DNA from: Burkholderiaceae bacterium
Lineage (GTDB): Bacteria > Pseudomonadota > Gammaproteobacteria > Burkholderiales > Burkholderiaceae_C
Direction: 5' to 3'
DNA: 38,034 bases
NCBI GenBank assembly: GCA_019746735.1
Contig: JAIERT010000078.1
Coordinates: 1-38,034 of the forward strand
The position numbers and the translations under genes were made by a program. The notes under the pieces are model-generated. The model made no database searches. It had not been told where the DNA came from and worked only from the letters and a program-made list of their open reading frames with translations. Shown here one piece after another: positions 12,341 through 14,751 of the stretch. Within the stretch, counting starts at the first letter, position 1. Every line of letters starts with the position of its first letter.

Positions 12341-12352
12341 GCTGAATAAGGT

Positions 12353-12446
12353 GACGGACCTGGATCCTGGCACTGACTCCACAGTTAGGGCTGCTTGGTT
12401 CCCCACCTGACCCGGTTGGCCGCTTCACCATGCAGGGAGGCCCGTC
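12353..12446 (-). ncRNA. ffs: 4.5S / signal recognition particle RNA (small bacterial type)
   Basis: Minus strand contains GGGTCAGGTGGGGAACCAAGCAGCCCTAAC (conserved GGTCAGG-GGAA-AAGCAGCC core). Ends pair perfectly (gacgggcct with aggtccgtc). TACAAT box 7 nt upstream, terminator downstream. Confidence 0.92.
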
Positions 12447-12528: not shown

Positions 12529-14409
12529 ATGTCCTATCTCGTGCTTGCACGCAAATACCGGCCGAAAAGCTTCACCGAAATGGTGGGCCAGGAGCACGTG
12601 GTGCGGGCCCTGGGCAATGCACTGCAGACGCAGCGCCTGCACCACGCCTACCTGTTCACCGGTACGCGCGGCGTGGGCAAGACCACGGTCTCGCGCATCC
12701 TGGCCAAGTCGCTCAACTGCGTGGGCGCGGATGGCTCGGGTGGCATCACAGCCCAGCCCTGCGGTGTCTGCCAGGCCTGCACCGACATCGATTCCGGCCG
12801 CTTCGTGGACTACACCGAGCTGGACGCGGCCTCCAACCGCGGCGTGGACGAGGTCCAGTCCTTGCTGGAGCAGGCGGTCTACAAGCCGGTGCAAGGTCGC
12901 TTCAAGGTCTTCATGATCGACGAAGTCCACATGCTCTCGAACACGGCCTTCAATGCCATGCTCAAGACGCTGGAGGAGCCGCCCGAGTACCTCAAGTTCG
13001 TGCTCGCCACGACCGACCCGCAGAAGGTGCCGGTCACCGTGCTCTCGCGCTGCCTGCAGTTCAATCTGCGGCCCATGGCGCCCGAGACCGTGCTCGAACA
13101 TCTCACCAAGGTGCTGGCCGCCGAGAACGTGCCAGCCGAAGCCGGCGCGCTGCGCCTGCTGGCGCGCGCCGCGCGCGGCTCGATGCGCGATGCGCTGTCG
13201 CTGACCGACCAGGCCATCGCCTTCGGTTCCGGCCATCTCGAAGAAGCCACGGTGCGCCAGATGCTGGGCAGCGTGGACCGCTCGCATGTGTACACGCTGA
13301 TCGACGCACTGGCACGGGGCGACGGCAAGACCGTGGTGGAGACCTCCGAAGCCCTGCGCGTCAACGGCCTGAGCGCGGCCTCCACGCTCGAGGAGATGAC
13401 CGTGGTGCTGCAGCGCATGGCCGTGCTGCAGGCCGTGCCGGACAGTGCCGACGCCTCCGACCCTGAAGCCGCCGAGACCGCGCGCCTGGCCGCGCTGCTG
13501 CCGGCCGACGAGACCCAGCTGCTCTACAGCCTGTGCCTGCACGGCCGCGGCGAGCTGGGCCTGGCGCCCGACGAGTACGCAGCTCTGACCATGGTGCTGC
13601 TGCGCCTGCTGGCCTTCAAGCCGGGCGCCATGCCTTCCGGCGGTTCGGCGGAAAAAAAAACACTGAAATCGCCTGAGGCGGCCCCGGCGCGACCCTCGCC
13701 GGTGATGGCGGCGCCGCCGCCTGCGGCCCCTGTGGCCCGACCCGCGCCGCCTTCCGCGCCGACCCCGCCCGCCGCCACGCGTCCCATCGCGGCGCCCACG
13801 GCCCGTTCCGCAGGCGTCACGCCGCCGGGGCAGGTGCTCTCCGTGGTGGACGAAGAGCATCCCGTACAGCCAGCCAGGCCCGTGGCGGCCATGCCCGCCG
13901 CGCAGGTGGTGGCCGTGCCCGTGCGCATGGCGCCCGAGTCACGTGTCGATACCCCTGCGGCCGGTGCGGCCCAGGGCGCGCCCCTGGTGCCGACGGAAGA
14001 GGGGGGTTACTGGCACCAGGTCGTGCGTGGCCTGATCGCCAGCGAAGCCATCACCGCGCTGGTGCGCGAACTGGCCCTGCAGTCGCAGCTGGTGGCGCGC
14101 GACGCCGACCAGTGGCTGCTGCGCGTGGAGCGCGAATCGCTCAACTCCACCTCGAGCCGCGAGCGTCTGCAGGCGGCCCTGCAGGCTGCGGGTCACCACG
14201 TGACGCTGGCTGTGGAAATCGGTCGCGTGGGCGACAGCCCGGCCAGGCGCAACGCCGCCATCGCCGAGGAGAAGCAGCTCGCGGCGGAAAAGCTCATCCA
14301 CGAAGATCCCTTCGTGCAGGCCATGGTGCGCGACTTCGGCGCGAAAATCGTGCCCGGCAGCATCAAGCCCATCGAATCCAACGGTTCATCGAACACTCCA
14401 ACGCGATAA
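12529..14409 (+). CDS. dnaX: DNA polymerase III subunit tau (full length); probable gamma by recoding
   Basis: MSYLVLARKYRPKSFTEMVGQEHVVRALGNAL, GTRGVGKTTVSRILAKSLNC, zinc cysteines (CGVCQAC), HMLSNTAFNAMLKTLEEPP. Pro-rich linker after residue ~378. Confidence 0.97.
   Translation: MSYLVLARKYRPKSFTEMVGQEHVVRALGNALQTQRLHHAYLFTGTRGVGKTTVSRILAKSLNCVGADGSGGITAQPCGVCQACTDIDSGRFVDYTELDAASNRGVDEVQSLLEQAVYKPVQGRFKVFMIDEVHMLSNTAFNAMLKTLEEPPEYLKFVLATTDPQKVPVTVLSRCLQFNLRPMAPETVLEHLTKVLAAENVPAEAGALRLLARAARGSMRDALSLTDQAIAFGSGHLEEATVRQMLGSVDRSHVYTLIDALARGDGKTVVETSEALRVNGLSAASTLEEMTVVLQRMAVLQAVPDSADASDPEAAETARLAALLPADETQLLYSLCLHGRGELGLAPDEYAALTMVLLRLLAFKPGAMPSGGSAEKKTLKSPEAAPARPSPVMAAPPPAAPVARPAPPSAPTPPAATRPIAAPTARSAGVTPPGQVLSVVDEEHPVQPARPVAAMPAAQVVAVPVRMAPESRVDTPAAGAAQGAPLVPTEEGGYWHQVVRGLIASEAITALVRELALQSQLVARDADQWLLRVERESLNSTSSRERLQAALQAAGHHVTLAVEIGRVGDSPARRNAAIAEEKQLAAEKLIHEDPFVQAMVRDFGAKIVPGSIKPIESNGSSNTPTR
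13652..13660 (+). promoter_or_regulatory. A9 slippery tract inside dnaX (candidate frameshift/transcriptional slippage site)
   Basis: gcg gaa aaa aaa aca ctg; heptamer A_AAA_AAA in the 0 frame at 13653-13659; stops at 13674 (-1 frame) and 13664 (+1 frame). Confidence 0.75.
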
Positions 14410-14418
14410 GGAAGACCC

Positions 14419-14751
14419 ATGTTCAACAAAGGACAACTCGCCGGCCTCATGAAGCAGGCCCAGGCCATGCAGGACAACCTCAAGAAGGCCCAGGAAGAAC
14501 TGGCCTTCATCGAGGTCAGCGGTGAATCCGGTGCGGGTCTGGTCAAGGTCGTCATGACCTGCAAGCACGACGTCAAGCGCGTGACCATCGATCCCAGCCT
14601 GCTGGCCGAAGACAAGGACATGCTGGAGGACCTCGTGGCTGCCGCCTTCAACGCCGCCGTGCGCAAGGCAGAGGAGACCTCCCAGGAGAAGATGGGCAAG
14701 CTCACCGCCGGGATGCCGGGGCTCCCCGGCGGCATGAAATTCCCCTTCTAA
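14419..14751 (+). CDS. YbaB/EbfC family nucleoid-associated protein
   Basis: [44 protein letters not shown]; located between dnaX and recR as is usual. Confidence 0.95.

Follow-up and report, generated by a model that had tools for sequence, protein, structure and literature searches.

The window analysed here, a 38,034-nucleotide stretch of DNA from a bacterium classified in the Burkholderiaceae, carries a dnaX gene whose predicted product contains the Pfam domains DNA_pol3_delta2, DNAX_ATPase_lid, DNA_pol3_gamma3 and DNA_pol3_tau_5. This gene is followed by an open reading frame that we take to be ybaB/ebfC-like on the basis of operon knowledge, in which the usual order is dnaX-ybaB-recR. 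The features relevant to this study, all on the forward (+) strand, are as follows.

12529..14409 (+): dnaX, encoding a full-length tau-like DnaX of 626 amino acids (open reading frame from the ATG at 12529; Pfam)
13240..13614 (+): domain III (collar) of the clamp loader, residues 238-362, predicted to be retained in a short product (PF12169)
13652..13660 (+): A9 slippery run, codons 375-378, read GAA AAA AAA ACA
13653..13659 (+): in-frame heptamer A_AAA_AAA, within the A9 run
13664..13666 (+): TGA, stop in the +1 frame (after losing one A or gaining two)
13674..13676 (+): TGA, stop in the -1 frame (after gaining one A or after a -1 ribosomal shift)
14032..14361 (+): tau domain V (binds Pol III alpha), residues 502-611, predicted to be missing from a short product (PF12170)
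14419..14751 (+): ybaB/ebfC-like gene downstream of dnaX (open reading frame)

A gene for the small bacterial SRP RNA (Rfam RF00169) directly precedes dnaX and is encoded on the other strand (window 12350-12446, -); relatives L088 and L105 have an SRP RNA gene there too.

An initial annotation of this DNA had pointed to the nine consecutive A's, to the heptamer that they contain and to the nearby stops in both alternative reading frames, and the sequence bears out each of these features at the coordinates listed above. The run is bounded by G at 13651 and by C at 13661. Past the run, the -1 frame encodes N-T-E-I-A before reaching its TGA, and the +1 frame encodes a single H before reaching its own. 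A transcript with ten A's, or a -1 ribosomal shift, is predicted to yield a protein of 382 amino acids, whereas transcripts with eight or eleven A's are predicted to yield proteins of 378 and 379 amino acids, respectively. The truncated product of about 382 amino acids that had been proposed therefore agrees with the reading frames. Placement of the run at the end of the clamp-loader core was likewise correct. Because the Pfam boundaries assign residues 238-362 to domain III and residues 502-611 to domain V, the A9 run sits directly after domain III, and a product ending at this location would still have the ATPase and collar domains but neither the linker nor domain V.

No other run of at least eight A's or T's is present in the window, for which dinucleotide shuffles give an expectation of 0.02 runs of eight A's. 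Across the 2.77-Mb draft genome there are three A9 or T9 runs in all. A DNA-level insertion or deletion, or an assembly error, at the A9 run of the window was considered and ruled out, since no relative carries a run of eight or ten A's there and the reading frame stays open.

For comparison, dnaX genes were gathered at the levels of genus, family and order, and these include 156 different family-level genes. Named relatives belong to the genera Hylemonella, Curvibacter, Acidovorax, Comamonas, Delftia, Variovorax, Ramlibacter, Rhodoferax and Hydrogenophaga, from which the family concerned is Comamonadaceae. Conservation of the run among close relatives had been put forward as a check on its importance, and it proved extensive. 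An exact A9 run is present in 125 of the 156 family-level genes, always in the same codon phase (phase 1), with an in-frame A_AAA_AAG heptamer found in 14 genes and neither signal in 17. Runs of eight, or of ten or more, A's at the site occur in none of the 156 genes.

The codons used at the site are equally constrained. Wherever the residues Glu, Lys and Lys are present, A is the third base of all three codons without exception (100% of genes), whereas the highest A-ending fraction among 35 other well-conserved Lys, Glu or Gln columns is 0.73. The synonymous alternatives AAG and GAG, the use of which was also raised as a check, are never found at the site in the 125 A9 genes, though elsewhere in these same genes they account for 63% of Lys codons and 60% of Glu codons. 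The ninth A, which lies past the heptamer, is invariably retained as the first base of a Thr or Ser codon. The stretch from TTCAAGCC to the A9 run differs between genomes in both length and letters while the run itself is constant, and thus A9 stands fixed inside a variable linker. Gene counts of this kind overstate independence because most A9 genes share a single origin. Together, the codon choice and the constancy of the run indicate strong selection on A9, probably as a recoding site.

Among the relatives, an apparent gamma-only dnaX gene (L299) was dropped, as its A-run and linker contain N's. In the genus g25, four genes (L132, L308, L309 and L310) are without the A9 signal and their sister gene L303 keeps it. 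This natural loss could offer a way to probe the purpose of the short DnaX.

Stops in the alternative frames were evaluated with 120 A9 genes. The +1 frame terminates at its second codon in 87.5% of these genes, and the -1 frame terminates within 10 codons in 96%. Both frames terminate within 10 codons in 94% of the genes, compared with the 4-7% expected by chance in the same genes (6.5% elsewhere in the linker and 4.4% in the core), which upholds the suggestion that the flanking stops might be conserved. When the set was thinned to 50 genes with less than 88% identity, 44 retained both stops, while 20,000 null draws averaged 2.9 such genes and never exceeded 10.

The manner in which the +1 stop is spelled is also informative. 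It is mostly formed by CTG-A (TGA), but where Leu precedes a codon that starts with G, six of seven genes use CTA or TTA and thereby create TAG in the +1 frame. CTA and TTA are rare, together making up 2.2% of Leu codons. Among the genes that lack the immediate +1 stop, 14 of 15 have another within 11 codons. These findings indicate that both out-of-frame stops are under selection. A +1 stop would be useless to a -1 ribosomal shift and useful to slippage, and its conservation therefore counts against -1 shifting.

The 14 genes with A_AAA_AAG derive from a Polaromonas-type group and from the small-genome genus g30, and their heptamers reside near the same domain boundary. A Shine-Dalgarno-like stimulator was defined by upstream anti-Shine-Dalgarno pairing of -6.5 kcal/mol or lower; the corresponding value for E. 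coli dnaX is -6.9 kcal/mol. By this cut-off, a stimulator is present in 14 of 14 A_AAA_AAG genes versus 6 of 125 A9 genes, in which the median affinity is -2.6 kcal/mol and the mean is equal to that of other windows of the same genes. The A_AAA_AAG genes all carry a -1 stop within five codons (14/14), with the +1 stop located 2 to 139 codons away. The heptamer in the dnaX gene of the window is A_AAA_AAA within A9, not A_AAA_AAG. The covariance model RF00382, which matches the E. coli dnaX control at 2e-20, yields no match in the window or in L002, nor in the three A_AAA_AAG relatives tested. The signals fall into two sets: A9 with stops in both frames and no stimulator, and A_AAA_AAG with a Shine-Dalgarno sequence and a -1 stop. 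A search of the 17 relatives lacking both signals for other slippery heptamers with a near stop recovered 1, with 1.35 expected.

Local folding was assessed by comparing energies with those of shuffled sequences. Scans around A9 yield mean z values of about -0.1 to -0.8, slightly below those of distant windows, and the fold at A9 in the window has a z value of -0.48. However, the E. coli dnaX hairpin has a z value of only -0.16 by the same measure. Because this hairpin is unremarkable by folding energy, the structure test is a weak one, and a candidate hairpin adjoining A9 was dropped given its unconvincing folding signal.

A single well-supported clade (99/95) of the dnaX tree holds the A9 genes together with the two heptamer groups, and the family relatives that branch outside this clade carry neither A9 nor A_AAA_AAG. 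The heptamer groups are nested within the A9 clade, which suggests that A9 is likely the ancestral state in the clade and that A_AAA_AAG is a replacement. Two groups of A_AAA_AAG genes are obtained in the best tree and in its bootstraps, but a single origin of this heptamer is not rejected by the AU test (p = 0.35). A near-identical cassette, GGGAG-N-GCCGCCGAGCC-NNA-AAA-AAG, is present in both groups (codons 373-381 of L130 and codons 379-386 of L088). The occurrence of a common cassette in two distant genera that lie apart on the best tree could reflect a single origin, exchange or convergence.

Among 121 dnaX genes from Burkholderiales outside the family, 12 have an A-run of at least eight nucleotides in the linker, compared with 0.5 expected from codon shuffling, and in 10 of these 12 the insertion frame reaches a stop within seven codons. 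Given this excess, A-runs seem to have originated repeatedly in this region of dnaX. Linker runs of A9 or A10 that are followed in the insertion frame by a stop no more than two codons on are found in the separate families f50 (L215, L217, L224 and L272), f8 (L140 and L190) and f4 (L226 and L246), and the runs in these three families look like independent gains.

We propose that RNA polymerase probably slips on the A9 run, and that a gamma-like DnaX of 378-382 residues is thereby produced in the manner of Thermus. Slippage would generate a mixture of dnaX mRNAs with 8, 9, 10 or 11 A's. Transcripts with nine A's, or with nine plus a multiple of three, would encode the full-length tau-like DnaX. 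Transcripts with other run lengths would lead the ribosome to a stop after one to six codons, giving a gamma-like DnaX in which the ATPase and collar domains are kept and the Pro/Ala linker and domain V are gone. We infer the occurrence of slippage, its efficiency and the gamma-like role of the short protein from comparative sequence analysis.

Several precedents bear on this proposal. The dnaX gene of T. thermophilus makes gamma by slippage on an A9 run, and both of its shifted frames end in a stop (PMC1088944, citing Larsen et al. 2000); this same run produces shifts in both directions when placed in E. coli (PMC6260861). Ribosome sliding on A-runs in an E. coli system required 11 A's (PMC4363877), and A_AAA_AAA is much less shift-prone in E. 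coli than A_AAA_AAG (review PMC5009743). The Thermus precedent, the threshold for sliding, the weak shifting at A_AAA_AAA and the missing stimulators together favour slippage, although translation may contribute because ribosomes could also shift to the -1 frame at A_AAA_AAA. The initial annotation had allowed for one or both mechanisms and had judged A9 to be nearer to Thermus than to E. coli; the evidence presented here favours Thermus-type slippage for A9.

Programmed -1 ribosomal frameshifting at A_AAA_AAA, as in E. coli and without slippage by RNA polymerase, would make use of the in-frame heptamer and of the -1 stop that lies close by in nearly all A9 genes, and relatives do bear the E. 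coli-type heptamer. We nevertheless regard this explanation as unlikely. A strong Shine-Dalgarno stimulator is missing from 119 of 125 A9 genes and present in every A_AAA_AAG gene, RF00382 is not matched, the shift-prone AAG variant never appears at the A9 site, and conservation extends to the +1 stop and to the ninth A, neither of which such a mechanism needs. Furthermore, the heptamer at issue is the much weaker one in E. coli (PMC5009743). Selection on stops in both frames would also be accounted for if ribosomes slide both ways on the A-run and terminate in either frame, with the mRNA unaltered. Such sliding has been demonstrated for E. coli ribosomes, but its reported threshold exceeds the nine A's that are strictly kept here (PMC4363877), making this a very improbable source of the short protein.

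The conservation of E/Q-K-K-T/S at the residue level might instead mean that an EKKT peptide is kept for protein function and that A9 is merely its coding. This reading is extremely improbable, as the third-base A is fixed at these three codons and in no other Lys, Glu or Gln column, GAG and AAG codons are found at the site in 0 of 125 genes, and the out-of-frame stops are left unexplained. In addition, some relatives carry a differently placed K-K with A_AAA_AAG instead, and others are without the motif. We give equally little credence to a chance homopolymer at which slippage is a harmless error and the stops only clear mistakes. Stops past slippery runs could indeed reduce waste, but synonymous substitutions would interrupt a run that evolved neutrally, the linkers of other Burkholderiales dnaX genes carry A-runs far in excess of expectation, and A9 has been swapped for another recoding signal in one or two lineages. 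Frequent loss of A9 with no replacement is predicted by this explanation, and only one such lineage, comprising four genes, is seen in the clade.

With transcriptional slippage as the preferred mechanism for A9, we consider it fairly likely that the ancestral gamma of the family was made in this way, and that at least one inner lineage, and possibly two, moved to -1 frameshifting by gaining A_AAA_AAG and a Shine-Dalgarno sequence together. If true, the level of readout changed while the truncated product was retained, and close relatives are directly comparable.

In E. coli, the gamma product of dnaX comes from -1 ribosomal frameshifting at A_AAA_AAG. The A9 site resembles the E. coli dnaX element (RF00382) in residing in the same gene, at the boundary between the core and C-terminal domains, and in specifying the same kind of truncated product, since the predicted short DnaX keeps and drops much the same domains as E. 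coli gamma. It differs in that A9 replaces A_AAA_AAG, the +1 stop is conserved, and both the Shine-Dalgarno stimulator and the RF00382 match are missing. With T. thermophilus dnaX it shares exactly nine A's in a single-ORF gene, nearby stops in both other frames and a short product without the tau C-terminus. Unlike that system, the host is a GC-rich member of the Burkholderiales, from a different phylum, and slippage is predicted from sequence. The run is also located about 60% along the gene, directly after domain III, whereas the run in Thermus lies seven-eighths along (PMC1088944). Recoding on an A-run is further shared with the two-ORF dnaX genes with A10 runs identified by GeneTack, whose recoding was judged by its authors to be transcriptional (PMC3711429). 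Those genes need recoding to make tau (PMC3711429), whereas here tau is made in the standard frame and recoding would give the short form.

This kind of recoding is already known from Thermus, but its family-wide use and the switch to the E. coli kind appear unreported. Among searchable open papers, there was no earlier report of family-wide slippage in Burkholderiales dnaX or of such a switch. The importance of gamma has long been disputed, even for E. coli. The family examined here keeps the codons, the length and the stops in both frames, and in a nested lineage another type of signal has taken over with the truncation point retained. An unchanged site, together with a change of signal that entails no loss of truncation, is strong evolutionary evidence that a short DnaX is useful. 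The cultured relatives Comamonas, Acidovorax and Polaromonas make slippage and ribosomal frameshifting comparable at one gene.

A T9 run was also observed on the coding strand at L203:1501-1509 (G000 contig C306:4879-4887), where a small membrane-protein gene seems to switch frame. A sequencing error, a phase-variable gene and a gene read by slippage are all possible explanations for this arrangement.
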